Shown here: positions 30,436-47,952 of the stretch, one piece after another
How positions within the stretch are numbered: position 1 is the first letter of the stretch
Layout: the number at the start of each line of letters is the position of its first letter
Source of the DNA: Pseudoflavonifractor sp. 524-17
GTDB taxonomy: Bacteria; Bacillota; Clostridia; Oscillospirales; Oscillospiraceae
Direction: 5' to 3'
Assembly (NCBI RefSeq): GCF_009935845.1
Contig: NZ_QWEK01000032.1
Location: 1-48,080, forward strand
Length of the DNA stretch: 48,080 nucleotides
Program-made: the position numbers and the translations under genes
Notes under the pieces: model-generated
What the model was told of the DNA's origin: nothing
What the model saw: the letters and a program-made list of their open reading frames with translations, nothing else
The model's database searches: none

Positions 30436-32124
30436 CTACTGTACTCTTACTAATTTTCGGTTTTCCAGACGGTAGACATACTCACATTCGTTGGCCAGAT
30501 TAAGGTGATGCGTCACCAGCAGAAGCGTCTTGTCCCCTTGTATCTTTCGAATGGAATCCAATACCGCATTTTCCGTATCCGTATCCAGCGCCGCGGTGGC
30601 CTCATCCATAATCAAAATCTCAAACTGCTTGTATAACGCCCTGGCCAGTGCAATACGCTGGCGCTGGCCACCGGAAATTGCGGTACCATTCCGGCCAATC
30701 AGTGTATCCAGCCCATCTGGCATTTTTTGGACATCCTCCCAAATCTGCGCGCACTTCAGGCACTCAATCAGCCGCGCCTCATCCTCATCCACCATAAAGG
30801 CTACATTGCTGCGGATGGTATCATCATTTAAGTAGACAGTCTGGGGAATATAACTGACCACATTTCCAATATCCGCCCGGCACAGACCCTGAGCGTCTTT
30901 TCCTTCTACAACGTCAAGATCGTCATACCAGATATGTCCTGACTGCGGATGCAGCAGCCCCAAAATCAAATCTAAAAATGTGGTCTTTCCCTCCCCGGAG
31001 GGCCCCACAATGGCGACTGAGCGGCCAGCCGGAATCTCAATCGAGGCGTTTTCAAAAATCTGTTTTCCATTTGGATAGTGAAAGCTCAGATTTTCTACAC
31101 GAATACCACAGTTCAATGTGACCCGTTTCTCCCGTAAGTTTGCTCTTTCCGCCTGAAGCCGCCGTATGGCGTCATACCGATCCATCGACTCCTTGAGCGC
31201 CTTATAATATTCAGACGCATATTGCAGTTCCGTCAATGCCGACGAAATTCGATTGGAAACTGGAAGCAGCCGGCTCAAAAGCGTAATATAAACCACCGCT
31301 CCAGGCAGAACCTGGGCTAAATCCACCCCAACCGCCAAAACGACTGCCAGCAGCAGCAGCAATACCACCTGCATGAGGTTTTGGATCACAACATTCTGTG
31401 CTCCCTTGAGCAACGTGAAATCCTTCTGTGCCTTGGCGCATTCCTCACTAACTCTGCGATACTTTTCCAGCAGCTTTCCCTTCCGGGAATCAACTTTGAG
31501 CTCCTTATAGGACCCATAAGCCACGGATACCAGTCCGGTGGCCCTGATTTCCAGCCTTCGTTTTTTTTCGCCGCAGCGAACCGCATAAACATAGCCAAAC
31601 AAATAGAATGCCGCCGTTGACAGTGCGATAGCCAGGCAGCTGACAATGCCAATTCCCTGCGCGATATAGATCAGCATCACGGAGTACGCCCCGGCAACCA
31701 GCAGGTCAACCGCCAAATCCACATACAAGAAAAGCATACCGGCACAGGCGGCAGGGTCAGTCCGCACACTGCTAATGGCCTGCGCAATACTCTTTTCATT
31801 GTGATCCTGCAGCTCTTCTTCCTCATACAGCGCGTAAATTTTTAAGGACCATTTGTGGGCAACATCTACCCTCAACCCGGCGGAGCAGCGTACTTTCAGC
31901 AGGTTGAAGACGCCCGCCAGCAAAAGGACGCCGGCAAGCAGCGCAATCTGAACAATCATCTGGTTTGAGAGATTTGACTGAAAAAGCTGCTGAATCACCG
32001 GTATAATCCGAGATACGCCAAACAGGTCCACCGCCGGACTGAGCAGACTCAACAGCACAAACAGCACAAAATATTTTCTCTGTGGTTTTTCCAAAAGCTG
32101 AATCAGCTTGAAGAATGTTTGCAT
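30436..32124 (-). CDS. ABC exporter, fused membrane and ATPase domains
   Basis: Encodes 562 aa from the second ATG (32124), since AGGAG would be too close to the ATG at 32130. A six-helix membrane domain (about 1-320) precedes an ATPase: Walker A GPSGEGKTT (about 374), Q-loop, signature ISGGQRQR (about 482), Walker B LIMDEATAALD (about 506) and His in VTHHLN. The layout is that of PglK-like glycan or lipid flippases. As last gene of the exopolysaccharide locus it probably exports a lipid-linked glycan or related product. Base composition is lower in GC than the pel genes. Confidence 0.88.
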   Translation of the reverse strand: MQTFFKLIQLLEKPQRKYFVLFVLLSLLSPAVDLFGVSRIIPVIQQLFQSNLSNQMIVQIALLAGVLLLAGVFNLLKVRCSAGLRVDVAHKWSLKIYALYEEEELQDHNEKSIAQAISSVRTDPAACAGMLFLYVDLAVDLLVAGAYSVMLIYIAQGIGIVSCLAIALSTAAFYLFGYVYAVRCGEKKRRLEIRATGLVSVAYGSYKELKVDSRKGKLLEKYRRVSEECAKAQKDFTLLKGAQNVVIQNLMQVVLLLLLAVVLAVGVDLAQVLPGAVVYITLLSRLLPVSNRISSALTELQYASEYYKALKESMDRYDAIRRLQAERANLREKRVTLNCGIRVENLSFHYPNGKQIFENASIEIPAGRSVAIVGPSGEGKTTFLDLILGLLHPQSGHIWYDDLDVVEGKDAQGLCRADIGNVVSYIPQTVYLNDDTIRSNVAFMVDEDEARLIECLKCAQIWEDVQKMPDGLDTLIGRNGTAISGGQRQRIALARALYKQFEILIMDEATAALDTDTENAVLDSIRKIQGDKTLLLVTHHLNLANECEYVYRLENRKLVRVQ

Positions 32125-32155
32125 CGGCATTCTCCTCTCCTATCTGGCTGTTGTC

Positions 32156-33748
32156 CTAATTTTTTTCTGAGCGTTCAGACTTATTGTCTCCCCTCTTCCG
32201 CTTGACCAGAGAGCTCGCCAGCCAGACCATACTTTTAAATTCCTGCCGCCGGACATGGGCGAGCAGAAACACGCCGTTGGTTGTCAGCACACAGATCACA
32301 AACCGCAGAATCAAAACGCCGGCCATCCCTCCCGTAACCAAGCCGCAGACGGTATCCACCAGCCACCAGGTGAGCGTAATGACCGCCAGATACACGGCGT
32401 ATTTCCGGATAAATGGCCCCAGAGGTTTTTTCAGGCAGTGGCGGAAAAACAGGTAAGGCTCCATCCATACCGGCACCAGAAGCATACTCAAAACCGTCCC
32501 CATAAAGATGCCGTTCACCCCATAACGCACTCCCAGGAGGATAGAGATGACCAGATTCAGCACAGCCTCTGCCAGCGCCTTGTACCGGTCCAGCCAGAAC
32601 ATCCCCAGCGCGTACCAGAATGTGGTCACTGTCTTCCTCATCCCCTGCAAAAACAGCAGGACGCACAGAAGCAGCACAGTGGAGCGGCCAAACAGATAGT
32701 GCGTCCCAAAGCTGAGTGCAATAAATGGGCAGAGCAGCTCATACAGACAGATTGCCGCCAGGCTGTAGATCCACTGACCGGTAAAAAAGGCCGTGTAGAA
32801 CACCGGCTCCAGCTCATCCCGATCCTCTGTGGTCCCCAAATTGCCGACGCTGGCAGCGATTCCCTGGAAAATCCGGTCCAGTACCTGCCGGACTGAGCTG
32901 ATGATTAGATAGTAGTTGGAGTAAATCGCCACATTGACAATCCCCGTAAGGCGGGAGAGCAGCAGGTTATCTGTATTATTGATAACCACAGCCCCAAGGC
33001 GGTGCAGGGCCAAGGCCCGGATATTCCGGCTGATCTCCTGCTTCTCCTCCCGCGGCAGCTCGTTGTCATTCTTCTCCCGCAGGTAGGGGTACATACGCTC
33101 CGCCTGACGGCAAATATACACATTACATAGTATGGTGCCTATAATAATCACCAAAAGATATGCGATATAATTCTTTGTAATAAGCAAAACCGCCATCTGA
33201 ATACAGACTCTTATCACAAAAAACGTGGTTGACCAAAGAGAGACAATATACTCCCGCTGGTAGGCTGTAATTACACTCCATTTGTAGGTCAGCAAATAGG
33301 ATACCACTGAATTTCCCAAATACAGCAGATAAATTAGCTTGAGGTGCTCAATGGCGGACAAGTCGCCTGCCAGATGGTGGAGGAAGGGCAGCATTCCCAA
33401 GCCGATCACAGCCACAAAAGCCGCCACCCCCAGATACAGCCGCTTATACAGCTTCATCACAGCCTGTATTTTGGGAATGTCATTTTGGGCGGCAGGACGA
33501 TACAGGGCGTAATTCATAGCCGAGGCAATTCCCAGCTCTGACAGAGCGAGTATGCCCAGAATGTCTGTAAACAGCCCATTGATACCGGCATAGCTCTGGC
33601 TCAGCGTATGGGTGAACACAACCCGGCCGGCATAGGCCACCACAACGGAGATTCCTTGGGTGACCATTGCCACAGTGGCATTAATAGCGGAATATTCCGC
33701 CCGGCTTCTCTCCTGAGTGTCTTTTTTCGCTCCCCGCTTTCCGATCAT
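32156..33748 (-). CDS. Polysaccharide flippase, Wzx/MOP type
   Basis: Encodes 530 aa, with GGGAGG before the ATG. About 12-14 helices. The start (INATVAMVTQGISVVVAYAGRVVFTHTL) and the GINGLFTDILGILALSELGIASA region are typical of lipopolysaccharide/capsule flippases in Firmicutes. It would move undecaprenyl-linked repeat units across the membrane. Together with PelG (another MOP-fold protein) and the ABC exporter it makes three possible glycan transporters in one locus. Confidence 0.88.
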   Translation of the reverse strand: MIGKRGAKKDTQERSRAEYSAINATVAMVTQGISVVVAYAGRVVFTHTLSQSYAGINGLFTDILGILALSELGIASAMNYALYRPAAQNDIPKIQAVMKLYKRLYLGVAAFVAVIGLGMLPFLHHLAGDLSAIEHLKLIYLLYLGNSVVSYLLTYKWSVITAYQREYIVSLWSTTFFVIRVCIQMAVLLITKNYIAYLLVIIIGTILCNVYICRQAERMYPYLREKNDNELPREEKQEISRNIRALALHRLGAVVINNTDNLLLSRLTGIVNVAIYSNYYLIISSVRQVLDRIFQGIAASVGNLGTTEDRDELEPVFYTAFFTGQWIYSLAAICLYELLCPFIALSFGTHYLFGRSTVLLLCVLLFLQGMRKTVTTFWYALGMFWLDRYKALAEAVLNLVISILLGVRYGVNGIFMGTVLSMLLVPVWMEPYLFFRHCLKKPLGPFIRKYAVYLAVITLTWWLVDTVCGLVTGGMAGVLILRFVICVLTTNGVFLLAHVRRQEFKSMVWLASSLVKRKRGDNKSERSEKN

Positions 33749-33763
33749 TCCGCGCCTCCCCCA

Positions 33764-35143
33764 TCAGTGGAGTATCTGAATCTCCCCCAGAACATAGCCG
33801 TTGAGATCCCTGTCCTGCGTGTTGGCCAGCAGGATATTCTCCCCAGAGGCAGGGTCTTTTAGGTCAAGACAGAGCTGATAAGAACCCTTCGGCAGTCCCT
33901 CAACAGAGACGGCCGCCCGGATTTCCGAGGTCTTTTCCGTATCCCGCCCGCCGGTGAGCGTCCGCAGGCTATGCTCTGCCGGGTACTGCCCTATCAGGCG
34001 GCCCTCCCCGTCCCGCAGGGTGAGAATTACCTCCGGCTCCGCATACAGCGGGGCAAACCCCGCATTTTGGACGATAACCTTCACATTTACCTGCCGCCGC
34101 AGCAGATCCTTCCGCAGCGCCGCCTCACGGATAAACAGCCGGTAGCCCAGACGCCGCTCGACATAGGACAGGCCGTCCATCTCATGGAAGCAGCCCTCCT
34201 CGCTCACCCTGGCGTCCGCCCATTTTTTCAGTACCCCGGCGTCATAATCCTGATTCAAATAGGTAACCCGCATCTGCTCCAGGTCCTGTACCGCGTTCTC
34301 AAAGTCGTTATATGGATTTTCCACTACCACCTCGCCGCCGTTGGGAACACTGCGGCACAGGATCTCCTGAAACGCCAGCTCCTGGACCCGGGTCCGGCGC
34401 TGATCTGCCTGGGCCGCCATGTCATAGGTACCCAAATCGCCCTCACTGCCCATGATTCCATCGTTAAACAGCCCCAGCCGTACCGCCAGACGGAGGTCAG
34501 CCCCGTCCCCGGTAATCAGCCGCCACTGGGCCGGTGTACGCACGGACAGCCAAGCCCCGGTGGCCCCGGCCAGCGTCTGGGCCAGAAGGCGCAGCTCAGC
34601 GGCGGACTCATAGTCTGTATTGTGCATCTCCCCCCAGTCCCCCACAAAAAGGCCCTGCAAGGTGAATATCTTCTCCTCATACCGGCGGAGGAGCTCCCCC
34701 ACCTGCTCCATATGGCGGAGAATCACCTCCAGACGTTCCGGCTCTGTCTGCCGGTTTTTTCCCTCGCAGTCGTAGAGAAAGCGCACTATCAGCTGTTTGT
34801 CCCCTGCGCATAGAGCGCGCAGCAGGGCGTCAAGATTTTGCAGTCCGGCAGGACTGATTTCCCCCTCCCGGTACTCCATCAGGTTGATCTCCACCAGCGC
34901 CAGGGTGGTGTCTGTGTCCCAGCTGTAAAACTTCCCCACCAGAGCGGGATAGTCCATCTCCTCATCGGTGATCTGAAACCCGTAAATCCGGTAAAACCCT
35001 CGGTTCGGGTTCGCCAGCGGCCGGTTGGATTCCTCAAAATCCCCCGCCCGCACTTCCACGCTCCGCAACTCCATCCACCCCCCACAGACAACCAGGAACA
35101 GCAGCAGGCCCACAACGGCAGCAATGCAGCTACGTATCCGCAT
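33764..35143 (-). CDS. DUF4874/DUF4832 secreted glycan-linked protein
   Basis: Encodes 459 aa from ATG 35143, which overlaps the stop of the next upstream gene (TGATG). One N-terminal helix (about 5-22) anchors or exports it. The following ANPNRGFYRIYGF stretch and VGDWGEMHNTDY are typical of DUF4874, followed by a DUF4832 beta-rich end. These domains are thought to form a TIM-barrel plus beta-sandwich like glycoside hydrolases. In this locus it could trim or bind the polymer outside the cell; that role is inferred. Confidence 0.8.
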   Translation of the reverse strand: MRIRSCIAAVVGLLLFLVVCGGWMELRSVEVRAGDFEESNRPLANPNRGFYRIYGFQITDEEMDYPALVGKFYSWDTDTTLALVEINLMEYREGEISPAGLQNLDALLRALCAGDKQLIVRFLYDCEGKNRQTEPERLEVILRHMEQVGELLRRYEEKIFTLQGLFVGDWGEMHNTDYESAAELRLLAQTLAGATGAWLSVRTPAQWRLITGDGADLRLAVRLGLFNDGIMGSEGDLGTYDMAAQADQRRTRVQELAFQEILCRSVPNGGEVVVENPYNDFENAVQDLEQMRVTYLNQDYDAGVLKKWADARVSEEGCFHEMDGLSYVERRLGYRLFIREAALRKDLLRRQVNVKVIVQNAGFAPLYAEPEVILTLRDGEGRLIGQYPAEHSLRTLTGGRDTEKTSEIRAAVSVEGLPKGSYQLCLDLKDPASGENILLANTQDRDLNGYVLGEIQILH

Positions 35144-37449
35144 CAATCTTTTCCATGAAGGGCCAGATTAAAGGGAGAATGCGGGTTTTGGTGGAAGTAG
35201 TAGCAAACAAAACTGTCATCCTCATAGTATACGCTCATTTCATTGGGGTAAAGCTCTATGAACCGCTGGCACCAGTAATAGGCTTTCGATTCAATAATGG
35301 TACGGCTTTCCCAGTTCGTATAGCATTGAAATGGAACAGGAAGATCCATCAATTCTTTCTCCGCTTCCTCTTTGGAAATCTCAGAGGATTTGACATTTGG
35401 TGCTTGGCTCCCCCATTCTCCCGCGTGTTTTTCCAAAGCTAACCAGGATGGACCCGTAAAAAAGTATCTTTGTGCATACTCCAACGGTCTTTTCTCTACA
35501 AAAATGAATACATACTCCGAAGGAAGGAAGTATCTCTCCTCAGCAGTCTGTCGAATAAAAATTAGCAGCTCTTCATGCCACCCGTTTTCAATTCCCTGAT
35601 AAAGACTATCTGTTGGTGATACCACAGTATACGAAAAATCGGGATAGGTGTTGATAATACTCTCCATAACCTCTACCGCGATACGATAGCGACTCAGTTC
35701 ATAGTACAGATACCCATGATAATTTTTCTCACTGGATGCCCATACACAAATGGCTAAGAGAGCAAAAACGGAAATCCCGCGAAGTACAACAGTTTTCAAC
35801 CAGACCGCCAAAAGGATGAATACAAAATCTAACGGAATTGCCGCCACCGCAAAAAACAAAATTCTCTGGGTACTGGCTATACGCACACCGGAAATTAACT
35901 CTGGAATACCTAAGTACGGCGCAATGTATACTAGCATTAAAATGAAAAACATTATCACCAAAAGGAAATATCCATCAAGCCAGTTTAGATTAATCCCCTC
36001 TTTTCCTGTCCAGTCTGCTATTGTACCTTTTAGTAGATGTATAATAAATTTCAGCAATAGGCAGACCAACAAAATAACCGGGAGTAGAATAACGTAAAAC
36101 GTAGTCCGTTCTGTTCCGATTACTTCCGCATATCCTCGACATAATATTTGAAATCCCTTGCCCAATGCGGTACCTATCTTATTTCCAGATGGTAAGGGAT
36201 GTTCACCCTGTTGGGACTGTCCTACATGTTCCGTCTCCTGCCAAATCTGACGTGACTCCTCGCCAGTTCCCTGAATTACATTCAGGGCCCAGCCCATTGA
36301 ACCCTGAAATTTGATACCAGACGCCAGCGCTCCCATCATAGGAGTTACCGCAATCAGCACTCCGCATAATACGGCTAATGCCAAAGACAAAAACCGTTTC
36401 TTAGAAAATACTCTCCGTAAGTAAAATATAGATACCCCAAGGCACATAAAAAAGGCCGTAATTGTTGGATAAAAATGGGAGGCAATTGTTGCCGCTAACG
36501 CCATCATAAAGAGAAACAGATTTGGTTCCAGAAAGAAACCAGCCAACCGCCCACTTCCAAACGGTTTTTGAACTTCCCTTGCCCTTAAATAGCGAATGAA
36601 GTACATAACACAAAGCATCTGCGGCGCAAAGCCAAACTCCTGGGGGAGGGTAAATTGTAGACGTGCCATGCCAGTAACTTCTACCCCACCTATGGCAACA
36701 AGTAGTATAAAAGCAGCCAGCATCAAAATAGGTGTATACCGCCAGCCAAAAAGTTCCCGGCACAAACAGTAGGAGGCAATCAAAAAAACTACCCCCTGTA
36801 TGCTTCCAAAGAATAGCACCAGACTAAATATCTGTACACCCAATACGGTATTGATGGTATAGAGCAAACAGTGCATAGCTTCTGGATAAATTCCTCCAGA
36901 AAACGGTTGCCCTTCCATAAGCCCATAGCACCAAGAATGATGAACGTACTGATCTCCAAAACCATAACAGCAGGTCTGAAACGCTCCCCAGGAGAGGTAA
37001 ATCAGGGCGTATACCGCAACGCCCCCCAGCAGCAGGTATTCCATCAGATGGGGCCGTATTGAGCGCCACAGCCGCCGCGCACGGTCCGCCGCGGCCCAAG
37101 CCAGCCGCTTGAACAGCAGCTTGAACCGAAACACCAACAGCCTGTCGGCAAAGGACACCGCCTTTTCCTCTGTCACACCCAGCCGCCGGTACAGCAGGAT
37201 GAGCGGGACTCCCCAGAACACGGTGCGCACAACCCATTGGTTCAAAATGTGAAGCAAGCCCAGTCCCAGCACCACGGTATTAATCAACACTGTCTGTACT
37301 GTGACGCAGAAACTGAACTGATAGAGCATGGACTTCCCGCTCAAATGACGGTTAAACACAAGCCGGGGCCACAGAAATTCCACCACTAAATAGCCCAGCA
37401 ATACCTTGATGAATTCTAAAATCCAGTATGGCGTGTTTGTAATATCCAA
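35143..37449 (-). CDS. Large GT-C-like polytopic membrane protein
   Basis: Encodes 768 aa from a TTG with GAGGGTG upstream. About a dozen or more membrane helices up to residue 580, then a soluble tail rich in aromatic and charged residues (about 590-768). The fold resembles GT-C glycosyltransferases or polymerases that use lipid-phosphate sugars; the DQYVHH region (about 170) may hold the acidic site. It lies between a DPM-like GT2 and the DUF4832 gene, so a donor-lipid-dependent transferase role is plausible. The stretch 35150-36900 is distinctly AT-richer than its neighbours, which hints at separate origin. Confidence 0.65.
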   Translation of the reverse strand: MDITNTPYWILEFIKVLLGYLVVEFLWPRLVFNRHLSGKSMLYQFSFCVTVQTVLINTVVLGLGLLHILNQWVVRTVFWGVPLILLYRRLGVTEEKAVSFADRLLVFRFKLLFKRLAWAAADRARRLWRSIRPHLMEYLLLGGVAVYALIYLSWGAFQTCCYGFGDQYVHHSWCYGLMEGQPFSGGIYPEAMHCLLYTINTVLGVQIFSLVLFFGSIQGVVFLIASYCLCRELFGWRYTPILMLAAFILLVAIGGVEVTGMARLQFTLPQEFGFAPQMLCVMYFIRYLRAREVQKPFGSGRLAGFFLEPNLFLFMMALAATIASHFYPTITAFFMCLGVSIFYLRRVFSKKRFLSLALAVLCGVLIAVTPMMGALASGIKFQGSMGWALNVIQGTGEESRQIWQETEHVGQSQQGEHPLPSGNKIGTALGKGFQILCRGYAEVIGTERTTFYVILLPVILLVCLLLKFIIHLLKGTIADWTGKEGINLNWLDGYFLLVIMFFILMLVYIAPYLGIPELISGVRIASTQRILFFAVAAIPLDFVFILLAVWLKTVVLRGISVFALLAICVWASSEKNYHGYLYYELSRYRIAVEVMESIINTYPDFSYTVVSPTDSLYQGIENGWHEELLIFIRQTAEERYFLPSEYVFIFVEKRPLEYAQRYFFTGPSWLALEKHAGEWGSQAPNVKSSEISKEEAEKELMDLPVPFQCYTNWESRTIIESKAYYWCQRFIELYPNEMSVYYEDDSFVCYYFHQNPHSPFNLALHGKD

Positions 37450-37474: not shown

Positions 37475-38239
37475 TCAAACCTGCCTGTCTCTTGTTCCGA
37501 TCTTCAAAAACTTGATGCGGAACGCAATGGCCAGTGTACTCAGCAGCATCCGGATCATGTACCACAAAGGCCGCAGCCCGGAGTGAATGCTCTTCCCCGC
37601 TGTGCGGGGGTGCATCACGGCGGGCGCCTCCACCACCCGGAACCCCAGCAGCAGCATCTGCATCAGCATGTTGGCGTCCGGGTACTTTGTGTCGAAATTA
37701 TTATATTGGGCAAAACAGGAAAACGCCCTTCTGTTCAGGCCCTGCAGGCCGGTGGTGGGGTCGGTAATCACCTGTCCCGTCATCAGCCGGATGAGGATCC
37801 GGAACATTTTATGGGCCAGCCGCTTGGCCGGAGACAGCGTAAAGTCCCTGGCACCCGCCCAATACCGGGTGCCCAGCACAAGGTCCGGGCGAACGCCTTC
37901 CCTGTCCTGTTCCACAAGCCGGTCGTAGATGACTGGGATATTGCAGGGATCATGCTGTCCGTCCGAGTCCATTTGGATCACATACTGATAGCCCGCCCAG
38001 ACCGCATATTTATATCCCACCTGCACCGCGCCCCCATAGCCCAGGCAAAACACATTATTTATCGAATGGTAGCCCCGCTCTGTGATAATCCGGGCCGTGG
38101 CGTCTTCTGAGGCGTCGTTGATAATAAGCACATCCGCCATCTGGGGAATGCCCTCCACCTCCATTTGGTCCAATAGGCGGGGAAGGTTTGCCTCCTCATT
38201 GTGGGCAGGCATGATAATCAGAAGCTCCCGCTTCTCCAT
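37475..38239 (-). CDS. GT2 glycosyltransferase, dolichyl-phosphate type
   Basis: Encodes 254 aa from ATG 38239 (AAGG upstream; a TTG at 38263 would add eight residues). GT-A fold: IIMPAHNEEANL, IINDASED and the DSDGQHDP metal-binding segment. The later TDPTTGLQGLNRRAF and the C-terminal helices match polyprenyl-phosphate mannose/glucose synthases and related GT2. It may charge undecaprenyl phosphate for the GT-C-like protein encoded next to it. Confidence 0.88.
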   Translation of the reverse strand: MEKRELLIIMPAHNEEANLPRLLDQMEVEGIPQMADVLIINDASEDATARIITERGYHSINNVFCLGYGGAVQVGYKYAVWAGYQYVIQMDSDGQHDPCNIPVIYDRLVEQDREGVRPDLVLGTRYWAGARDFTLSPAKRLAHKMFRILIRLMTGQVITDPTTGLQGLNRRAFSCFAQYNNFDTKYPDANMLMQMLLLGFRVVEAPAVMHPRTAGKSIHSGLRPLWYMIRMLLSTLAIAFRIKFLKIGTRDRQV

Positions 38240-38259
38240 AGGCTGGGCCCTTCTTCCGT

Positions 38260-39456: not shown

Positions 39457-39829
39457 GGCCCTCCCCTATCTCAGCGGGGTCTGTGTCCTCCCACCCCTTC
39501 TGCTGCCTGTGCTCCGCCAGCAGAAGAGACACCATCATGGCCAATTCCTGATTTTCCGTTATCAGTTTTGAGAGCATCAGACAAATCCGAAACGCCCCCA
39601 CCAGGCCGGCCGCTCCCACGCAGAGCAACGCAATCCCTGTCCACATGGAAATGAGATCAATCCATCGGGACAGCACCGGAACCGCTCCTACCGTTACAAT
39701 CGCCAGACCCAGCAGACACCAGACCGCCGCCAGATCTGACGTCATCTTTTTCCCGGCATGGAACCGGAAGCTGGCGGCCATCAGCAGCAGCCCGCTCCCT
39801 ACGATCACCCCTCTTATCATAACTGTCAT
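39431..39829 (-). CDS. DUF2304 small membrane protein
   Basis: Encodes 132 aa starting two bases after pelG. Three membrane helices and a C-terminal coiled helix (ENQELAMMVSLLLAEHRQQ). DUF2304 proteins are small partners commonly encoded beside GT2 polyprenyl-phosphate glycosyltransferases in polysaccharide loci, as here. Precise function unknown. Confidence 0.8.
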   Translation of the reverse strand: MTVMIRGVIVGSGLLLMAASFRFHAGKKMTSDLAAVWCLLGLAIVTVGAVPVLSRWIDLISMWTGIALLCVGAAGLVGAFRICLMLSKLITENQELAMMVSLLLAEHRQQKGWEDTDPAEIGEGHEEHTVCH

Positions 39830-39831
39830 CT

Positions 39832-41295
39832 CTATGCCGTCCCCTCTCTCTTCTCCGCTCTCTGCTGATACACCTGAGTTGGGAGACGCTTCCCCCGGCC
39901 CCGTTTTACCAGCCTGCCCTGGCAGAATACCTGTCTGTCCATGTGCCGTTCTGTCCAGCGCAGCCGGAAATATCCCACTGTCCAGCCTGTAAAGGAACCC
40001 GCCACCACGCCGATCCCATACCAGATTTCCGGCAGGTGTGTCGCCGCCAGACTGCCCAGGAATGTAACCAGACAGAAGCTCACCGCAGTGAATATGGCCC
40101 CCCACATATCTTTAAAGTAGTACAAAAACAGAATTTCCGCGTACATTTGGAACAGAATGAAGTATCCCGCCGCCAAGCAGGGGTAGATCCGCATGATCAT
40201 CCCCGCAAACCCGAAGCGAGGCAGCACCACCACAAAGAGCAGATACACCACCACGGAGATGATGAACTGAAGCCGCGCCAAATCCATCAGCTGGTTGGCA
40301 ATCTCCCGGAACATTTTGCGCTTGGCGTTGCGAATATCCGACAACCGGCCGCCGATCACCGCCTCAGAATAGGCCTTATAGCGGTCATGGAAGAACATCT
40401 CCACCCGGGCGATAAAGATAACCGTGGCGGAAATATTGGTGAACATGGCCAGACAGGACGCCATGTCATAGGGCTGGTTGCAGACAAAGGACCTGGCCAC
40501 TACCATGCGCATCTCCGTAGTCCAAAATACAAAGTTGTGGATGTACAGCCCCAGAGTATAGAAGAGATAGACCGCCACCAGATGCCAGTACCGTCTGAAA
40601 TACCCCAGCACCGGCCAGAACCGGTTGCTGTTTTCCACGAAATACCGCCGGACGGAGCCGTACTCCAGCACCGCAATCACAAAAAAGCCAATCGTCATGG
40701 AGAACAACATGCTCTCCGTAATGCCCCAGCCCACCCAGAAATGGAGTATCAGAGCGAGCACAAAGCAAACCGTCATACCCACAAGGAAGAACAGCGATAT
40801 CCTTCCATAATCTTTGCAGATAGACAGGTAGAGCATGGAGTAGAAGACCAGCACCAGGCAGATAAATCCACAGAAGCCGGTGAACACATAGGCCACCGGC
40901 ACTTCCCCCACAAAGTGCTCCCACAGGCAGAAGGGAATGCCCAGCAGGCAGCTGAAAAAAATGTTCAGCAGCAGCCCCACATAGAAGCAGGGCAAAATAT
41001 CCTGATAGCGCTCCTCAAAGATGGCGTCCTGCATATACTTGGACAGCACGGAGTTAAAGGGCGCGGCGGAGAGCAGAGCAAAGATGAAAATATATAAAAC
41101 TGTGCAGGAGAACAGCTCCCTGGTGTAGTAATCCAGGGTATCAAACCCCAAAATCCACTCCATCAACAGCAAGACGCCAATCACCAATACCATGGGCGCC
41201 ACTGTTAGACAGGAGCCGTAGGCCACACCCGCCAGTCCTGCCGTAAGGGATCTTTTCTGAAAAAACTTGTTCAGTCTGACGCCAATGCCAGCCAT
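39832..41295 (-). CDS. pelG: PelG-like polysaccharide transport membrane protein
   Basis: Encodes 487 aa from ATG 41295 with AAGGAGG. About twelve helices of the MOP (MATE/Wzx) fold. The start MAGIGVRLNKFF and the region FLVGMTVCFVLALILH, plus WTTEMRMVVARSF and the basic tail, follow PelG. In the Pel system it forms, with PelD, PelE and PelF, the inner-membrane complex that exports the partly acetylated GalNAc polymer. It follows pelF with a 104-base gap. Confidence 0.88.
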   Translation of the reverse strand: MAGIGVRLNKFFQKRSLTAGLAGVAYGSCLTVAPMVLVIGVLLLMEWILGFDTLDYYTRELFSCTVLYIFIFALLSAAPFNSVLSKYMQDAIFEERYQDILPCFYVGLLLNIFFSCLLGIPFCLWEHFVGEVPVAYVFTGFCGFICLVLVFYSMLYLSICKDYGRISLFFLVGMTVCFVLALILHFWVGWGITESMLFSMTIGFFVIAVLEYGSVRRYFVENSNRFWPVLGYFRRYWHLVAVYLFYTLGLYIHNFVFWTTEMRMVVARSFVCNQPYDMASCLAMFTNISATVIFIARVEMFFHDRYKAYSEAVIGGRLSDIRNAKRKMFREIANQLMDLARLQFIISVVVYLLFVVVLPRFGFAGMIMRIYPCLAAGYFILFQMYAEILFLYYFKDMWGAIFTAVSFCLVTFLGSLAATHLPEIWYGIGVVAGSFTGWTVGYFRLRWTERHMDRQVFCQGRLVKRGRGKRLPTQVYQQRAEKREGTA

Positions 41296-41399
41296 CTTTT
41301 CCGCCTCCTTTCTCATTCCCGGCCAGTAGTCCCGTTTGCCGCCTCTCAAAAGCTGTCTTCGGCAAAGCCGTTAAGAACCACGGCGGTTGGTACAGCTTC

Positions 41400-42842
41400 T
41401 CAGCTTACGCCCGCTGTCTGCCGGTTCCTGTCTCTCTCCTTCTGGAAAAAGTCCTTGTAAATGCGCTGATAGGTCTCGTACATCTGTTCACTCCGATACT
41501 TGGCGGACACCCGCTGGTATCCGGCCTCCCCCATTTTCCGGCGGTCCTCCGGGCGGTGGGCCAGGTAGAGGATCGCCTGGGAGATCTCCTCCAGATTCAT
41601 GATATGGGTGACAATACCTGCCGCACCAAAGCCATCCCCTTCTCCCATAATCAGCCCGCGGCAGTTTCCCACATCTGTGGCAATGACTGGCCGGTGGGCG
41701 GCAAAGCTCTCCAGAATGGTCAGGGGCTGGCCCTCACTGATGCTGGTGAGGATGGTCATATCCATTCTCCCCAGGTATTCCTTAACATTGATTCGCCCGG
41801 TAAACACCACGTCGTCCTGAAGGCCCATGTCCTCTACCAGCTCAAAGCAGTCCTGGGCGTACTGATCGCCCTCCTCCCAGGGTCCCATAATCCACAGCTT
41901 CAGCGCAGGCTCCCGCTCTTTAGCAAAGCCAAAGGCCTGGATCATAGATTTTACGTCCTTAATGGGGGTGAGCCGCAGCACCGCTCCCACATTGATCCAG
42001 CCCTCGTCTTCCTCCGTCCTGCCTGGGATATCCTGAAAATCCTCCACCCGAATGCCGTTAGGGGTAACTAAGGTCTTCTCCTCCGGGCAGTCTAACTCTA
42101 TTTGGAGAAGCCGGGCCTCCTCGTACAGGCTGGTCACCAGATCCGCCCGGTCATACGCCAGCCGGGACATCTTTCGGAACTGGTGGATCCACACATTTTT
42201 ATACAATCCCTGCACCCACTTTGCCTTGACCAGCTCCTCCTCCCGTTCCCGGGTATAGATGCCATGCTCAGAAATCATAAGCGGACAGCCGTACAAATAT
42301 TTGGCCACGCTGCCCAGCACCCCGGCATAGCCGGTGGACAGGCAGTGATACAGGTCAGCCTCGGGCAGCTTCATCTTCAGCGTGAAAAACAGGGGCAGGT
42401 AGATGGATCGCATCATCCAAAGAAAGTCAGAAAACACCACCTGGCTGTAATTGAGCTGATAAAATTCCTCCACAGCGTGGAGAAAGTCCTCCCCCATGAG
42501 CAAACTGTTCAGAGAAGGGCGCTTTTTCTGAAAAAAGTTGATGAGCGTCTCCCAGTCTATCCGCTGATCCAGCAGCAGGCTGCGCAGGGCGTTATACTCC
42601 GTGCGCTTGATCCGCCCCCTCCGCCGCCTGCCCCAGTCGGTATCCTGAAGATACAGCTCATGTACCTCGGTCACATTGTCCGGCAGGGTATACACAAATT
42701 TTCCCCGCTGAGAGTGATCCGGTATAATCGTCACAATCATGAACTCGTGCTCCGAAAAGGACTGGATGATGCTATGCACCCAGCTGGACACGCCGCCCAC
42801 GGCATAGGGGTAGCACCCCTCTACTACGATACAAATGCGCAT
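41400..42842 (-). CDS. pelF: PelF-like glycosyltransferase (GT4)
   Basis: Encodes 480 aa, start at 42842 with GGGGAGAGGGA. PelF polymerises UDP-sugar into Pel. The opening EGCYPYAVGGVSSWVHSII is the PelF hallmark, as is LTSISEGQPLTILESFAAHRPV with donor-site Glu pair. The central ISEHGIYTREREEEL is also characteristic. A soluble cytoplasmic enzyme that works with PelG. Its start codon lies 40 bases inside the 3' end of the DUF2194 gene. Confidence 0.92.
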   Translation of the reverse strand: MRICIVVEGCYPYAVGGVSSWVHSIIQSFSEHEFMIVTIIPDHSQRGKFVYTLPDNVTEVHELYLQDTDWGRRRRGRIKRTEYNALRSLLLDQRIDWETLINFFQKKRPSLNSLLMGEDFLHAVEEFYQLNYSQVVFSDFLWMMRSIYLPLFFTLKMKLPEADLYHCLSTGYAGVLGSVAKYLYGCPLMISEHGIYTREREEELVKAKWVQGLYKNVWIHQFRKMSRLAYDRADLVTSLYEEARLLQIELDCPEEKTLVTPNGIRVEDFQDIPGRTEEDEGWINVGAVLRLTPIKDVKSMIQAFGFAKEREPALKLWIMGPWEEGDQYAQDCFELVEDMGLQDDVVFTGRINVKEYLGRMDMTILTSISEGQPLTILESFAAHRPVIATDVGNCRGLIMGEGDGFGAAGIVTHIMNLEEISQAILYLAHRPEDRRKMGEAGYQRVSAKYRSEQMYETYQRIYKDFFQKERDRNRQTAGVS

Positions 42843-42882
42843 AGATCCCTCTCCCCCTGCTGGTCTGTTGGAACATTTCCGG

Positions 42883-44694
42883 TCAGTCCGGATACTCCGC
42901 ACCCAGCGTCACTGTCACACTACGCTCCTGGGTTTCGAGCAAATAGACGCCTTTCTCCACCTGACGGGGGCTTCCACCCTCCACATTGACAACCGTTCTG
43001 CCTGGAACGCGCAGGAGAAACCACGCCGGCCCGCTGCCGCTGTGCTGGATAGATACCTGAGTTCCTTCATAGCTGTAAGCATAATCCAGCGCGAGAAAGT
43101 CCCGGATACGCCCATCACACTCAGAAACCGTAGTGGCGTCGAAGGCTTCGAACTTTTTCCAACCGCCAGGTACATTAGAAGTCAGCCGCTGGGACAGTAC
43201 GTCCCAGGTGTCGTCCTTGCTGCTGGGATACACCGGCCGGGCGGCGTCCACCATTACACTGGTGTACCCCAGCGCCGTCTCCAAGCTCCGCACCCGGAAA
43301 TCCGCCATAAAGGTGTGTTGAAATCCGTCGGTAACGGCCATCTGCCGGGTGACCTGCTCCGCCTGGTAGCCCACCACCTGGCTGCTGCCATCGTAGGGCA
43401 CCGCCACTGTGCGCATCATGAACAGATCGCCCCAGCCCAAGACTTCCGACAGCTCCTGCTCCGTCAGATCCCCGCCGTAGAGAGAGGTAAACGGGTACTC
43501 CAGCCCGGCAAAGTTCATGAACTCAAAATCCGCCGCCAGACGGCTGGTAACAGGGGTATCGGACACGCTGCCGGCGGACAGCCCCGGCTCTGCCCCCAGC
43601 TCATTGAGCAGCTTCATGTAATAGACAAAACGTCTCTCGTCCGGCCGGCGGTCGTCGTCATAGTCAAACTGTACGGACATCATACAGGACAGGCCCAAAT
43701 TTCCCCGGTGATAGATTGCGGTGAGATCCGGCCACAGTACATCCTGATACAGTCCGCGCATGGACATACTATAATACCGCTGCAGGGCGGCGCCGTTCTC
43801 CGAAGCCAGGCCCGGATAATTGGCAACCACCAGATTTTGGGCATTTATCACTGGATAGACGCTGCAGCTATTGGTCTCCGACGCCATGGCGGACAGAATC
43901 CCCAGCCCAGCGGCGTCCTCCATATACCTGCCGTTCACCGCGAACACATAAGCGCCGCCCAAGCTCCGCCGCCAGATCACGGCAGGGTGATTCTCGACCT
44001 TTTCCTCCCCGGTGGGGAGCCCCTTCATGTACACCTTTGTACCGTAGTCCAGGATATACCAAGGCATTTCCAGCTCCAGATCCTGGCGCCACTCATTTTT
44101 CTCCTGATCCGTGCTCCGGTAGATGATCTCCCCGCCCAAAAGAAAGCCCTCATATAGATGAAGGCCCTCCACCACGGTACGCTGGGCGCGGACCTCATAG
44201 ATTCCCAACAGCTCCCGCAGAGCCTGATTTTCCTGGATGACAGAGGGCCCCGGCAAAGTTGCCAGCACCAGATTCGCCCCAGCCCCGGCCCAGTCCAGCA
44301 GTGTCTGGCATGTGCTGTCATTCCAATTCATCCCGGCACCGTCCAGCACCATCAGCTCTGGGACTTCCGCGCCTGGCGCATACTGCGCCAAATGCGTACT
44401 GGTGTGAAAGCCTCTCTTTGTGTAGGCCGCCCAGCTGGCCGCAACCTGTCCGGCGGCGCTGTCCGCACTGCCGACAAACATCACCCCCGGCCGTGTGGTC
44501 CCCCAGGGTGTCTCTCCACTCAGATTGTCCGGCGTGAATACACTGCTTTTGGACGCCAGGCTTGACAAATCCACTGCGTTTTCGTTGTCCCCATAGTCGT
44601 TCCACAGTTCCAGCGCTACATTGGTGAACTGGAACATAAATAATACGACAAACATAATCACCGCGATTGAGAAGAAGTTCCGGCGCGATACCAT
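42883..44694 (-). CDS. DUF2194 protein, PelA deacetylase-like
   Basis: Encodes 603 aa. One N-terminal anchor helix (about 7-25) and a large extracytoplasmic part. DUF2194 is found in Gram-positive pel loci at the position of the PelA deacetylase domain. QFDYDDDRRPDER (about 345) resembles the acidic metal motif of CE4-type deacetylases. A classical PelA hydrolase domain is not present. It would deacetylate the polymer as it leaves the cell; that is inferred from place in the operon and the motif. Confidence 0.75.
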   Translation of the reverse strand: MVSRRNFFSIAVIMFVVLFMFQFTNVALELWNDYGDNENAVDLSSLASKSSVFTPDNLSGETPWGTTRPGVMFVGSADSAAGQVAASWAAYTKRGFHTSTHLAQYAPGAEVPELMVLDGAGMNWNDSTCQTLLDWAGAGANLVLATLPGPSVIQENQALRELLGIYEVRAQRTVVEGLHLYEGFLLGGEIIYRSTDQEKNEWRQDLELEMPWYILDYGTKVYMKGLPTGEEKVENHPAVIWRRSLGGAYVFAVNGRYMEDAAGLGILSAMASETNSCSVYPVINAQNLVVANYPGLASENGAALQRYYSMSMRGLYQDVLWPDLTAIYHRGNLGLSCMMSVQFDYDDDRRPDERRFVYYMKLLNELGAEPGLSAGSVSDTPVTSRLAADFEFMNFAGLEYPFTSLYGGDLTEQELSEVLGWGDLFMMRTVAVPYDGSSQVVGYQAEQVTRQMAVTDGFQHTFMADFRVRSLETALGYTSVMVDAARPVYPSSKDDTWDVLSQRLTSNVPGGWKKFEAFDATTVSECDGRIRDFLALDYAYSYEGTQVSIQHSGSGPAWFLLRVPGRTVVNVEGGSPRQVEKGVYLLETQERSVTVTLGAEYPD

Positions 44695-44707
44695 TTGTCT
44701 CCTCCCG

Positions 44708-45760
44708 CTACGCCCCTGCCGCCTGTGTCTCCTGCTTCGGGGCGCTCTCTATCTGAATTCTTTGATCTCCAAATACCTTGATCAGCTCCAGCGTCTCCTG
44801 GTCAATGACGACCTTGGACTGCTTCAAGGCGGACATGGTGGTAAAAAACGCCTCCCGATCCTTCGTTGAAAAGTACAGCTTCAGCCTGCACGTATAGGCC
44901 GCCAGACAGTCCGGATACTGTTCTACCAGACGCCGGCACCACTGCTCCGCGCTGTCAAATTCCCCTGCCTCCATAAGACGCAGGCAGACGCTCTCATAGT
45001 GGGCCACGGTGAGCTGGGCGGCATCCTTGCCAAAAAGGGACTCCGCCGCTGATGCCATCACCCGAACCTGTTTTTTCTGCTCCAGTCCCACAAACGCCCC
45101 TTGCTTGAGGAAGCCGTCCATATAGGAGAGCAGCTCCAGCTCTGCAGCCGTCTGCTCTTCCTCCTCTTCCGCCATTGTCCGGCATAGCCGCCGCACTCTG
45201 TCGCGGAACTCATCCAGCTCTCCGCTGAGGACCGACGCGGCGTAGTGGGCGGTTTCCGGATCCTCGCTGTTCAGCGCCAGCAGAATAACCCCCAGCGCCG
45301 AGCGCACATCCCCGCGGATGGTATTCATCATGACCATACGCAGATCCTTTCCCTTGTTCAGAAACAGGGCCTCCTCCAGGGGGATCATGTCCCGCTCCCG
45401 TTCCTCGTCGGCCTTCAGATGGGTTTTCACCCGCTCCTTGCTGAACACCACATCCTCCAGGTGGGGCTGCATCCACAGCGGCAGACGGAACAACACATAG
45501 GACAACACAAAGAACAGCGGCCCCACCACCGGGCACAGCACCATTATCAAAAAGCGCACCAGATAGGTCCGGCGGTTGTCATGGCGCACCTCCACCTTGG
45601 CCTTGCGCTCCTTCCTGGTCCGCAGGGGGGAGACGATCAGCGCCCCCACCAGCAGGTAGAGCACTGCCACCACCAGATTCACCAGCCACACAAGGACAAA
45701 CATCCGCTCTTCCCATGTCAGGTTTGTCAGCCTTGCGGCTATCAAATCTATCAAGTTCAC
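44708..45760 (-). CDS. pelE: PelE-like membrane TPR protein
   Basis: Encodes 350 aa from a GTG that overlaps the pelD stop (GTGA), with AAGGAGG upstream. Two helices near the N-terminus (about 20-42 and 68-90) and a long cytoplasmic helical region with TPR-like pairs (EAGEFDSAEQWCRRLVEQYP). This matches PelE, which bridges PelD and the synthase complex. The frame is open further upstream but inside pelD and without a start signal. Confidence 0.85.
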   Translation of the reverse strand: MNLIDLIAARLTNLTWEERMFVLVWLVNLVVAVLYLLVGALIVSPLRTRKERKAKVEVRHDNRRTYLVRFLIMVLCPVVGPLFFVLSYVLFRLPLWMQPHLEDVVFSKERVKTHLKADEERERDMIPLEEALFLNKGKDLRMVMMNTIRGDVRSALGVILLALNSEDPETAHYAASVLSGELDEFRDRVRRLCRTMAEEEEEQTAAELELLSYMDGFLKQGAFVGLEQKKQVRVMASAAESLFGKDAAQLTVAHYESVCLRLMEAGEFDSAEQWCRRLVEQYPDCLAAYTCRLKLYFSTKDREAFFTTMSALKQSKVVIDQETLELIKVFGDQRIQIESAPKQETQAAGA

Positions 45761-47952
45761 AGTGCTACCTCCTTGAGCAGGCTGCTGTTGTACCCGGCAG
45801 CCCGGAAGCGCTCCATCACAAGGCCAGCGTTTTCTTCGTTGGTATTGGACAGGAGTATATACACCGTGTCTCCCCCGTCGGACCCCATATAGTCCGACTG
45901 GCGGATCCCCTCGCTCAGGGCGGACACTACGGCAGACCGGCTTTTGCCGGACACCGGAATCTCCAGCAGGGCGCATTCAGTCAGTCCCTGATCCCGTGCC
46001 CGCAGGAACGCCCCTGCCAGCTGACGGAAGGCATCCCCGGCCATCAGCCGGGTCCCATCCACATACCGCTGGCTGCTCAGCGCATCCAGATACCGGGTAG
46101 CCCGCACCACTGCAGATTGGACCATCTGTCCAATTACCGCCAGCCGGTTGGCCTCCGCCATAGTCATGCGCTGCCAGGGAATGCCCCAGAGCATGAAAAT
46201 CAGCTGCATTTCCTCCCCGCTGTAGACCGCGCTGGCCATCAGCGGAAGCTTCTCCTGCATGGTCTTGTTGATAAACACCCGCCGCTCCTTCAGCTCACGA
46301 TACATCTCGGTCATGGCGGAGTATTTAATGGAGTTCCCCAGGCTCCTGGCCTCCCGAGAGATCGAGGAGAACAGACGGGCATAGTCCCGGTTGGCCACGG
46401 TATAGATAGCCGCTCCCCCACACTCCATCAGCTGAGCCAGCGTCTGCACCGCGGTAAAGAGGACCTCCTCCGGGGCCTGCCGCTCCAGAATGGAGGTAAT
46501 ATCATAGATCTTACCCAGGCTGTCTTTTTGGTTTACCAGCTGAACCTCAAAGTTCTCCTTCATCCGTACATTGCTGTCGTTGATCTCGGTAAGATCCTCC
46601 AGCCGGTTCTCCAGGTATGCGATCTCATCCTGGCTCTCCTGCTTTATGGTGTGGAGCTGATCTTTTATGTAACCCACTACCATACCCACAATAAAAATCT
46701 GAGCCATCCATACATAGAGGTTAAAATCCAGCAGCACCTCAAATCCGCTGCGGTAGTACATCTGCTGTAAACAGTACCCTGCCGATGCCAGCAGACCCGA
46801 CAATACCGCCTGCCGCTGCCCCAGCGTCACCGCGAACAGCAACACATACAGCAGGAAAAAATCCACCCGGTCGAAAAAGCCATTGCCTGCGGTATAGTGG
46901 TTCAGAAAGAACACCCCGACAAAGCACAGAATATTCTCCACATAGGGGACCAGCGCGGCCAGTATAACCCGGACCCGGTGAAGCAGCCGGGCCGCCCAGC
47001 TGCCCCCGGCATCCTCTGCCTGGATAAAGGACTCCCGGTGGCGCTTCATAAACTGGGCCACCTGCTTGACGCCCTCGGGATAGTGCGTGAAAATTTTCTG
47101 TCCCAATTTCTCCGCGAAAGCGGACCCGTCCAGAACCACCCGGTGGACCTCGCCCACCGACTCCTCCACGACCTCGACTCCCTTGCCCATGGCATCCTGG
47201 ATCAGCTCAGCCAGCTCCACACCGTTGATCTCCTCCATGGCAGAGATATGGTAGACCGGCTGGGCCAGCTCCGGAGCGGCAATTGCCTTGTAAGACAGCT
47301 CCGCCGCATCCTTGACAAAGAGCATAGAGAACACGTCCCGGTCGCTGGCGAAGATTTTCCCGCTCTTCAGCGCCTGCATACACATAACACCGCAGGGATC
47401 CGCCTCCGGGCGCCCTTTCTCCGGCACGCAATACAGGTGATCCAGCCGCAGGATCCGGATGTCCAGCCCCTGGTTCTGACGGTAGTTGGCACAGATCTCC
47501 TCACCCTGGGCGATGGCCATGCTCCGCAGATTCTTGGGGGCCGGTTTCCAGGACTCCGGCAGGTTTTGAGGAAAGGAGCCGGAAAACACCTCCTGCGAGG
47601 AAAAATAAATGAACCTCCCCCTCCCCAGCATGGAGTAGGCGGTCAAAATGTTGATAAGGGCCGCCGTATAGCGTACCGACTCCTGCCGGGCTTTCTGCCA
47701 GTTGAAGTGACTGTCCCAGGCGCCGGCAAATATGGTGATATCTGGCTTAATACTGTCGTAAATATCCTTTACACTGTCGTTATCATAAGAGAAGTTATAT
47801 TTTTCAAACACACGTTGCCGCAGATGCCTGCTTTCCCTCTGTCCGGTGAGCAGATAGACCCTGTCGCCGTTTTTGTTCAGCCTGTCTATCAAAGCCTCTA
47901 CCAGCCGGCCGTTTCCTATCAATAAAACCTCCATATCCTCCCACTTTCTCAC
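45757..47952 (-). CDS. pelD: PelD-like c-di-GMP receptor fused to SDR domain
   Basis: Encodes 731 aa from GTG 47952 (ATG 47934 is an alternative). Residues about 7-310 form an extended short-chain dehydrogenase/epimerase-like domain: LIGNGRL at the nucleotide loop and YFSSQEVFSG, but no YxxxK (SMAIAQGE stands in its place), so probably not catalytic. Then four helices (about 323-350, 363-380, 381-398, 408-428), a coiled coil (430-480), a GAF domain (480-625) and a degenerate GGDEF domain. There RxxD (R684, D687) lies five residues before GGDTV, the exact spacing of a c-di-GMP inhibitory site. It should sense c-di-GMP and switch on polymer synthesis. Confidence 0.85.
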   Translation of the reverse strand: MRKWEDMEVLLIGNGRLVEALIDRLNKNGDRVYLLTGQRESRHLRQRVFEKYNFSYDNDSVKDIYDSIKPDITIFAGAWDSHFNWQKARQESVRYTAALINILTAYSMLGRGRFIYFSSQEVFSGSFPQNLPESWKPAPKNLRSMAIAQGEEICANYRQNQGLDIRILRLDHLYCVPEKGRPEADPCGVMCMQALKSGKIFASDRDVFSMLFVKDAAELSYKAIAAPELAQPVYHISAMEEINGVELAELIQDAMGKGVEVVEESVGEVHRVVLDGSAFAEKLGQKIFTHYPEGVKQVAQFMKRHRESFIQAEDAGGSWAARLLHRVRVILAALVPYVENILCFVGVFFLNHYTAGNGFFDRVDFFLLYVLLFAVTLGQRQAVLSGLLASAGYCLQQMYYRSGFEVLLDFNLYVWMAQIFIVGMVVGYIKDQLHTIKQESQDEIAYLENRLEDLTEINDSNVRMKENFEVQLVNQKDSLGKIYDITSILERQAPEEVLFTAVQTLAQLMECGGAAIYTVANRDYARLFSSISREARSLGNSIKYSAMTEMYRELKERRVFINKTMQEKLPLMASAVYSGEEMQLIFMLWGIPWQRMTMAEANRLAVIGQMVQSAVVRATRYLDALSSQRYVDGTRLMAGDAFRQLAGAFLRARDQGLTECALLEIPVSGKSRSAVVSALSEGIRQSDYMGSDGGDTVYILLSNTNEENAGLVMERFRAAGYNSSLLKEVAL

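Follow-up and report, generated by a model that had tools for sequence, protein, structure and literature searches.

The window analysed here is the complete 48,080-base contig NZ_QWEK01000032.1 of Pseudoflavonifractor sp. 524-17 (genome size, 3.72 Mb), which carries a locus of 12 genes, all on the minus strand and read from position 47952 down to 30436, in the order pelD-E-A-F-G, DUF2304, GT4, GT2, GT-C protein, DUF4832, Wzx and ABC (GT, glycosyltransferase; ABC, ATP-binding cassette). Sequence comparisons place it in a class of its own among Gram-positive Pel loci (type 2), distinct from the CotH-type clostridial loci. In type 2, PelA retains a deacetylase fold without the active site, and the pel genes are joined to a module of glycosyltransferase and flippase genes. 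We propose that the locus makes a PelF/PelG-dependent polymer whose maturation has probably switched from deacetylation to side-chain glycosylation. The genes, and the site that appears to close the unit, are as follows (ORF, open reading frame).

45757..47952, minus strand: pelD; degenerate N-terminal epimerase domain, membrane part and cyclic diguanylate (c-di-GMP) receptor part with RxxD (RQSD); Pfam Epimerase, 48.8 bits.
44708..45760, minus strand: pelE; GTG start at 45760, with a 4-base overlap with pelD; assigned by position and by homology in relatives.
42883..44694, minus strand: pelA; membrane-anchored deacetylase-fold protein without catalytic residues (pseudo-deacetylase); Pfam DUF2194, 69 bits.
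41400..42842, minus strand: pelF; synthase, DUF3492 plus GT4; the ORF opens at 42902, conserved Met at 42842; DUF3492, 258.8 bits.
39832..41295, minus strand: pelG; exporter; the ORF opens at TTG 41349, conserved Met at 41295; Pfam PelG, 477.8 bits, E 5e-143.
39431..39829, minus strand: DUF2304 small membrane protein (GacJ-like); weak Pfam match in the window.
38260..39456, minus strand: GT4 cytoplasmic glycosyltransferase, a possible extender of a lipid-linked sugar; Pfam, 93.5 bits.
37475..38263, minus strand: GT2 of the polyprenyl-phosphate-sugar synthase type (GacI-like); Pfam, 56.7 bits.
35143..37449, minus strand: GT-C glycosyltransferase with a C-terminal soluble domain, 768 residues; assigned by predicted fold.
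33764..35146, minus strand: DUF4874/DUF4832 glycoside hydrolase family, like the Pel hydrolase SIR_1591; Pfam, 146.6/177.7 bits.
32156..33748, minus strand: Wzx-like flippase; NCBIfam WZX_like, 23 bits (cut-off 300).
30436..32130, minus strand: PglK-like ABC half-transporter, probable alternative flippase; Pfam ABC, 98.2 bits.
30294-30278, minus strand: terminator-like stem and T run after the ABC gene, closing the unit; 25 such sites were found on both strands against 16.1 expected, a moderate excess, and a single site is weak evidence.

PelG (PF16933) was sought in three overlapping genome draws, from the family (300 genomes), the order (345) and the class (341), and counts from the three are not summed. 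Of the 300 genomes in the family draw, 15 had a PelG match at E ≤ 0.001; six strong non-window loci were taken, and G216 (30.4 bits) and seven matches below the cut-off were left out. From the draws, 29 strong non-window loci were read with a homology-aided gene caller and profiles (the fetched loci). When named genomes were scanned with the type-2 PelG alignment, 345 relatives, which may include the other Pel type, were confirmed, and the best 80 (L094-L173), a sample biased to the window's PelG type, were annotated (the named loci); L094, L095 and L098 carry the same PelG as G122, G606 and G234. Named loci with at least 7 kb before and at least 8 kb after pelG are called full (n = 64), and counts in them are raw ORF matches. 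By their record titles, the best 80 relatives come from Lachnospiraceae, Oscillospiraceae and allied Clostridia, and the relatives include Fusicatenibacter saccharivorans, Schaedlerella arabinosiphila, Blautia luti, Coprococcus catus and Roseburia metagenome-assembled genomes (MAGs). Several PelG loci of the window's kind can be present in one Lachnospiraceae assembly (L109, L127 and L151 in the same MAG, L122 and L147 on the same contig, L139 and L152 in the same MAG).

A CotH-group gene was found directly after pelG in 19 of the 29 fetched loci. The CotH identity was checked for one member (PF08757, 225 bits), and in G717 and G621 the end of the contig truncates the gene (244 and 53 bits). 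Of the 19 CotH-type loci, 16 have two further genes after CotH, which their position and size suggest to be the polyphosphate-polymerase-like and DUF4956 genes of PMC7112168; in the other three (G462, G717 and G621) the contig stops. GT-C, DUF2304 and GT2 had no match in any of the 19 loci, within the stretch read. The window's module is present, and CotH absent, in seven fetched loci, and neither was found in three (G265, which is cut at pelG, G932 and G824). No fetched stretch had both. Models for the CotH, polyphosphate-polymerase-like and DUF4956 positions matched none of the 80 type-2 named loci at 40 bits or more, and had no match in the window or the seven type-2 genome loci. As side observations, L167 has a weaker DUF4956-position label upstream, and two or three tandem CotH-group genes follow pelG in G210 (L047/L048), G275 (L049/L050) and G602 (L062/L063).

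The two types also separated in their core proteins. PelG of the seven module loci matched the window PelG with 405-917 bits, and PelG of the other fetched loci with at most 261 bits. Type 2 formed a single branch in the PelG tree, with support of 100/100 and a long stem (1.74 changes per column), and again in the PelF tree, with support of 100/99; 20 of the 80 named loci entered the first PelG tree, and 14 each the PelF tree and the second PelG tree. Chance juxtaposition or an assembly artefact was rejected because the same gene order recurs in named genomes.

The key residues of the Bacillus cereus deacetylase PelADA, whether catalytic, metal-binding or otherwise, are D262, D263, H350, H354, P405, R458, H488 and D491 (PMC13254593). 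None of the eight is present in the aligned window PelA, in which ANYP replaces DDFP, HGYNH falls in a deletion and YTSV replaces HPDD. PelA was surveyed in 74 of the 80 named loci and in 26 of a further 30; in the rest it was cut, short or absent. All 81 type-2 proteins (three loci counted twice; 78 distinct loci) had zero or one of the eight residues: none was kept in 70 of the 74 named proteins and in six of the seven genome proteins, and one was kept in the remaining four and one. Among 19 non-type-2 PelA proteins, 17 had all eight, G717 had four and G621 had two. Alignment-free searches gave the same picture, as HxxxH after residue 250 was found in 0/81 type-2 and 17/19 other proteins, HPDD in 0/81 and 17/19, and a PPSN-like motif in 0/81 and 18/19. 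Misalignment was rejected as the cause of the loss, since these counts agree and the structural model of the window PelA keeps the deacetylase fold (predicted local distance difference test score, pLDDT, 88.5; best match the deacetylase Agd3, 6nwz, E 7e-13, template modelling (TM) score 0.51). The sole PDB sequence match of the PelA profile at E ≤ 1 was 9ZAU, PelADA. The original prediction, made from the letters of the window, had called this gene a deacetylase; the fold was right, but the active site is gone, with metal-binding and catalytic residues missing.

Judged by substitution rates, the dead PelA domain remains under purifying selection. The median ratio of nonsynonymous to synonymous substitution (dN/dS), from at most 51 close pairs, was 0.20 for the dead domain, 0.22 for the N-terminal part of PelA, 0.17 for GT-C, 0.09 for PelF and 0.12 for PelG, with single pairs reaching 0.6 and distant pairs near saturation. 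Decay without function was rejected because these medians lie well below 1, and so selection probably maintains the dead domain for a function other than deacetylation. It is likely that type-2 PelA serves as a scaffold that handles the polymer where it leaves PelG, and PelADA has been modelled touching PelG at the chain exit, where such a scaffold would sit (PMC13254593).

The loss of the active site appears selective, as the motifs of the synthase, the c-di-GMP receptor and the hydrolase are intact. RxxD of PelD, which lies on a degenerate GGDEF domain and from which c-di-GMP binding is predicted, was kept in 7/7 type-2 genomes and in 70/70 named loci aligned; NCBIfam SiaD and GGDEF matches to PelD were weak, below the cut-offs, and two further GGDEF genes lie in the genome. 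PelE had a TPR_14 match below the cut-off and is homologous to PelE of the relatives. The R, K, EHG and EX7E positions of PelF, which we take to be GT4 motifs with catalytic meaning, were 100% conserved in the type-2 sets and are conserved in types 1 and 2. The GxWGE and GGE glutamates of the DUF4832 hydrolase were 100% conserved in 11 type-1 and 64 type-2 proteins, drawn from the genome loci and from every second named locus. The DUF4832 family comprises Pel-type glycoside hydrolases known beside streptococcal and clostridial pel genes (PMC7112168, PMC12345266), and its member SIR_1591 is a Pel hydrolase in Streptococcus intermedius (PMC12345266). Because 11 of the 19 CotH-type loci also carry DUF4832, and because it is a published neighbour of pel genes, the enzyme belongs to the Pel side, and its placing in a second polymer module by the original prediction was rejected.

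The loss in PelA could also be explained if the backbone is no longer the Pel of galactosamine (GalN) and N-acetylgalactosamine (GalNAc), which in the Gram-positive pelDEADAFG system is alpha-1,4 GalNAc in partly deacetylated form: PelF would have changed its sugar, deacetylation would have become pointless, PelA would have decayed, and the module would serve a new polymer. Pel in B. cereus requires PelADA activity (PMC13254593), so a system that lacks this activity may not make Pel, and its loss in type 2 could mean a different polymer, which counts against our proposal; in Pseudomonas aeruginosa, too, deacetylation is reported as needed for Pel (PMC10269871). The long stem of type 2 in the PelG tree fits a changed backbone, as do G717 (L075) and G621 (L089), CotH-type loci with a partly eroded PelA and possible intermediates, which stand beside type 2 in the PelG trees (support 99/95 and 92/87). 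However, the PelF tree does not group these two loci with type 2 (0% of bootstraps; the branch of G621 is long), PelF shows no change at the motif positions tested, and 62 of the 64 full type-2 loci retain a SIR_1591-like, Pel-degrading kind of hydrolase, whose glutamates are intact. We favour a retained PelF/PelG-made polymer and regard a changed backbone as unlikely.

The module is closely tied to the pel core. In the 64 full loci, matches were found to GT-C in 64, DUF4832 in 62, GT2 in 58, DUF2304 in 57, GT4 in 57, Wzx in 29, ABC in 14 and CotH in none. In 36 of the 80 named loci GT-C is placed between pelE and pelA, and in 37 it is downstream of pelG (one with a second copy upstream); it lies upstream of pelA in one, where the sequence does not reach pelE, and none was seen in six, all with cut flanks. 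GT-C is also inside the pel core in G805, in G788 and in G190, whose locus is split and has GT-C in its second half, and in G788 GT2 is inside the core too, with DUF2304 ahead of pelD. Strong GT-C matches (alignment A5) were found only in genomes with type-2 pel genes (4/300, 3/345 and 4/341, the window genome counted each time). One of the last four, G893, gave no PelG match and has a broken type-2 locus. The original prediction had held that both modules belong together and had called for a neighbourhood survey of relatives; the co-occurrence and the GT-C gene inside the pel core support it, and since strong GT-C matches came only with type-2 pel genes, independent occurrence of the pel core and the module was not found in the relatives.

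Weak GT-C matches (E 1e-17 to 1e-31) were seen in four genomes without a PelG match, and these carry a different cluster of a PelF-like gene, GT2, DUF2304 and a distant GT-C-like protein (G657, L193; G909, L194; G233, L195; G272, L196). In L195, which was checked by Pfam, DUF3492 was confirmed, and a MurJ-like flippase and an HD_5 protein were found. This cluster is possibly a third DUF3492-based glycan system.

From the three transporter types in the window, the original prediction had suggested a decorated polymer, a lipid-anchored one, or two co-regulated polymers. In the last case, Pel and an unrelated Wzx- or ABC-dependent glycan would be made under one c-di-GMP-controlled promoter. Two independent polymers are unlikely, because GT-C sits inside the pel core in the 36 named loci and, in G788, GT2 does as well; GT-C is also absent, remote matches apart, from genomes without type-2 pel genes, and no Wzy-type polymerase was recognised by Pfam among the window genes scanned. 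The transporters themselves rarely occur together: one of the 64 full loci has both Wzx and ABC, 28 have Wzx only, 13 have ABC only and 22 have neither (Fisher p 0.0016, not corrected for relatedness); the window, too, carries both. Wzx and the PglK-like ABC protein thus look like alternative flippases, so that three transporters need not mean three polymers. Of the options suggested, a decorated polymer fits best.

The proteins of the module point to lipid-linked sugar chemistry. DUF2304 of the window scored 19.5 bits against a Pfam cut-off of 25.5, and all eight aligned proteins, the window's included, matched the family at E ≤ 0.01 (best 3e-19); DUF2304 is typical of GacJ-like proteins (PMC8327497). 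For GT4, the best NCBIfam models were EpsE (85 bits) and PglJ (76 bits), both far below their cut-offs. All seven PDB matches of GT2 at E ≤ 0.001 were undecaprenyl-phosphate 4-deoxy-4-formamido-L-arabinose (Ara4FN) transferases, dolichol-phosphate-mannose synthase or sll0501, and the model for the polyprenyl-phospho-GalNAc synthase PpgS was matched by 7/7 aligned proteins (window, 63 bits; cut-off, 370). The GT-C protein had no Pfam match, and its structural model (pLDDT 85.8) has a GT-C fold with 16 PDB matches at E ≤ 0.001. By their titles, 15 of these are oligosaccharyltransferase (OST), ALG12, ALG9, Pmt4 or DPY19 entries and one is a translocon entry; we infer that the chains matched are the catalytic GT-C subunits. 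Wzx had no Pfam match in the window, and five of 13 aligned proteins, the window's not among them, matched Polysacc_synt. The best NCBIfam model for the ABC protein was PglK (235 bits; cut-off, 1000), and the PglK structure was matched over residues 68-561 (209 bits).

In the four-component system of group A Streptococcus carbohydrate synthesis, GacI and GacJ make N-acetylglucosamine (GlcNAc)-phosphate-undecaprenol, which is then flipped by GacK, and GacL adds the side chain (PMC10821137). We propose a comparable order of events for type 2. From homology and motif integrity, PelF would make the chain in the cytoplasm, with its sugars presumed, PelG would export it and PelD would control the process via c-di-GMP. 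The chain would not be deacetylated on exit by PelA, which keeps its anchor and deacetylase fold without the active site. As family, fold and gene order suggest, GT2, helped by DUF2304, would load a sugar onto undecaprenyl phosphate, GT4 may extend the lipid-linked sugar, and Wzx, or in other strains the PglK-like ABC protein, would flip it. GT-C would then transfer the sugar as a side chain onto the emerging chain, as GacI/J/K/L do for the group A carbohydrate; by this analogy, its acceptor would be the PelF-made chain. The DUF4832 enzyme, if it acts like SIR_1591, may trim or release the polymer. As a tentative extension, to which we give somewhat less than even weight, a conserved pseudo-deacetylase PelA in this gut-clostridial Pel family may hand the chain from PelG to GT-C, giving a fully acetylated, branched Pel-like matrix whose strain-variable side chains come from a downstream cassette with a Wzx or PglK-like flippase.

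Downstream of the type-2 loci of relatives, 80 of 159 unlabelled ORFs were scanned, and the matches included GT2 families (22), FrhB-type proteins (12), NTP_transf_5 (9), Stealth (8) and pyruvyl transferase (7), with 25 of the 51 families shown. Such glycosyltransferase, Stealth and pyruvyl-transferase genes suggest a variable decoration cassette. The GT2, Stealth, NTP_transf_5 and pyruvyl-transferase families also recall capsule or wall-polymer clusters, and would suit the lipid-anchored option of the original prediction, that GT-C couples the Pel chain, after export, to an oligosaccharide linked to lipid or belonging to the cell wall, giving a cell-bound capsule and not a loose matrix. GT-C enzymes such as WpsJ do attach polymer to polymer (PMC10821137). 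However, GacI/GacJ-type pairs load side chains in the streptococcal systems reviewed, and no LytR-CpsA-Psr (LCP) wall-ligase gene was found among the window genes scanned, though LCP genes can also be located in other places. We consider anchoring improbable, and side-chain glycosylation remains our preferred reading.

Several observations weigh against side-chain glycosylation. GT-C enzymes can also polymerise or ligate, and the structural matches of the GT-C protein are remote (TM 0.30-0.48). In the window, none of GT2, DUF2304, Wzx and ABC reaches the curated cut-off of its best family model, and by bit score in the PDB set, full-size ABCB-type or multidrug-type transporters match the window ABC protein as well as PglK does, with up to 227 bits. 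Not every locus has the whole set: 6/64 full loci have no GT2 match, 7/64 no DUF2304 match, and 22/64 no match to Wzx or ABC in the flank at the thresholds applied, and in G788 neither GT4 nor DUF4832 was matched in the stretch read. In G893 (L189-L191), a broken type-2 locus reads pelD-pelE-GT-C-pelA with a pelF stump of 144 residues and no pelG. For PelA, DDxP was found in 2/81 type-2 and 17/19 other proteins, though the two type-2 proteins lack HxxxH and HPDD. As a side observation, the pelF stump of G893 is followed by ORFs of 441, 2652, 304 and 1869 residues without a match.

In the window, the genes named in the original prediction were all found on one strand, from 47952 to 30436, and its statement that overlaps or gaps are mostly under 35 bases was right by the likely starts. 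The spacings are -4 bases for pelD/pelE, 13 for pelE/pelA, 40 for pelA/pelF, about 104 for pelF/pelG from the conserved Met starts (50 if TTG 41349 is used), 2 for pelG/DUF2304, -26 for DUF2304/GT4, -4 for GT4/GT2, 25 for GT2/GT-C, -4 for GT-C/DUF4832, 15 for DUF4832/Wzx and 25 for Wzx/ABC. The remaining minus-strand terminator-like sites all lie inside genes. The contig gives 128 bases upstream of pelD, and promoter-like sites in the window were at chance level (11 found, 12.0 expected). Scans of the window for transfer RNA and Rfam families gave no match. Convergent with the pel operon, the plus strand at 24093-30274 carries a flavin/iron-sulfur subunit, a molybdopterin formate-dehydrogenase-like protein, FdhD and then an amidase with an SH3 domain; further away are a transposase-type ORF with an rve integrase core (12430-13251) and a FeoA-FeoB fusion (2013-4484).

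That a clade of gut Clostridia retains a PelA devoid of its active site, with 78 distinct loci counted and more likely among the 345 PelG relatives, suggests that Pel systems do not always need deacetylation and that PelA has a further role, one that involves no catalysis. The clade would also connect a polymer of the synthase-dependent kind with the machinery for undecaprenyl-phosphate side chains, and Pel-like matrices in the gut would thereby be chemically diverse; it offers a testable gene set for the matrix sugars of Lachnospiraceae and Oscillospiraceae.

Parts of this arrangement have been published. The CotH-type accessory genes, DUF4832 and the epimerase-PelD fusion were described in PMC7112168, and the same paper noted in 2020 (S7 Fig legend) Roseburia pel clusters within capsule- or teichoic-like operons and left their function open; the joining of the modules is thus not wholly new. 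Those Roseburia clusters are probably of the same type as the window, as the legend labels (GT2, phosphotransferase, nucleotidyltransferase) recall the downstream genes of type-2 relatives, and the Roseburia MAG loci L157, L163 and L165 were retrieved by type-2 PelG. The description in the available part of PMC7112168 mentions no active-site loss, GT-C or DUF2304. Among the matches listed from the open-licence literature, there was no report of a dead PelA or of a GT-C/DUF2304 module in pel loci; relative to those matches, the clade, the GT-C/DUF2304 machinery, the exclusivity with CotH and the dead deacetylase are new.

Compared with the pelDEADAFG locus of B. cereus (PMC7112168), type 2 shares the pelD-E-A-F-G order, the PelF and PelG families, the RxxD of PelD and an anchored deacetylase-fold PelA. 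It differs in that its PelA lacks the MT1, MT2, MT3, Arg and MT5 residues named for PelADA (PMC13254593), and in the added DUF2304-GT4-GT2-GT-C-Wzx/ABC genes. With the clostridial and streptococcal CotH-type loci (PMC7112168, PMC12345266), it shares the epimerase-PelD fusion and the DUF4832 hydrolase found in many of them, whereas the CotH, polyphosphate-polymerase-like and DUF4956 genes are replaced by the glycosyltransferase module. The predicted part list of that module, GT2, DUF2304, Wzx and GT-C, resembles that of GacI/J/K/L and of the lactococcal WpsA/B/G/J system (PMC10821137, PMC8327497), in the latter of which cytoplasmic glycosyltransferases extend the lipid-linked sugar. The likeness to GacI/J/K/L is one of family and fold, and the acceptor in type 2 would be a synthase-made chain exported by PelG, unlike the ABC-exported rhamnan of these systems.

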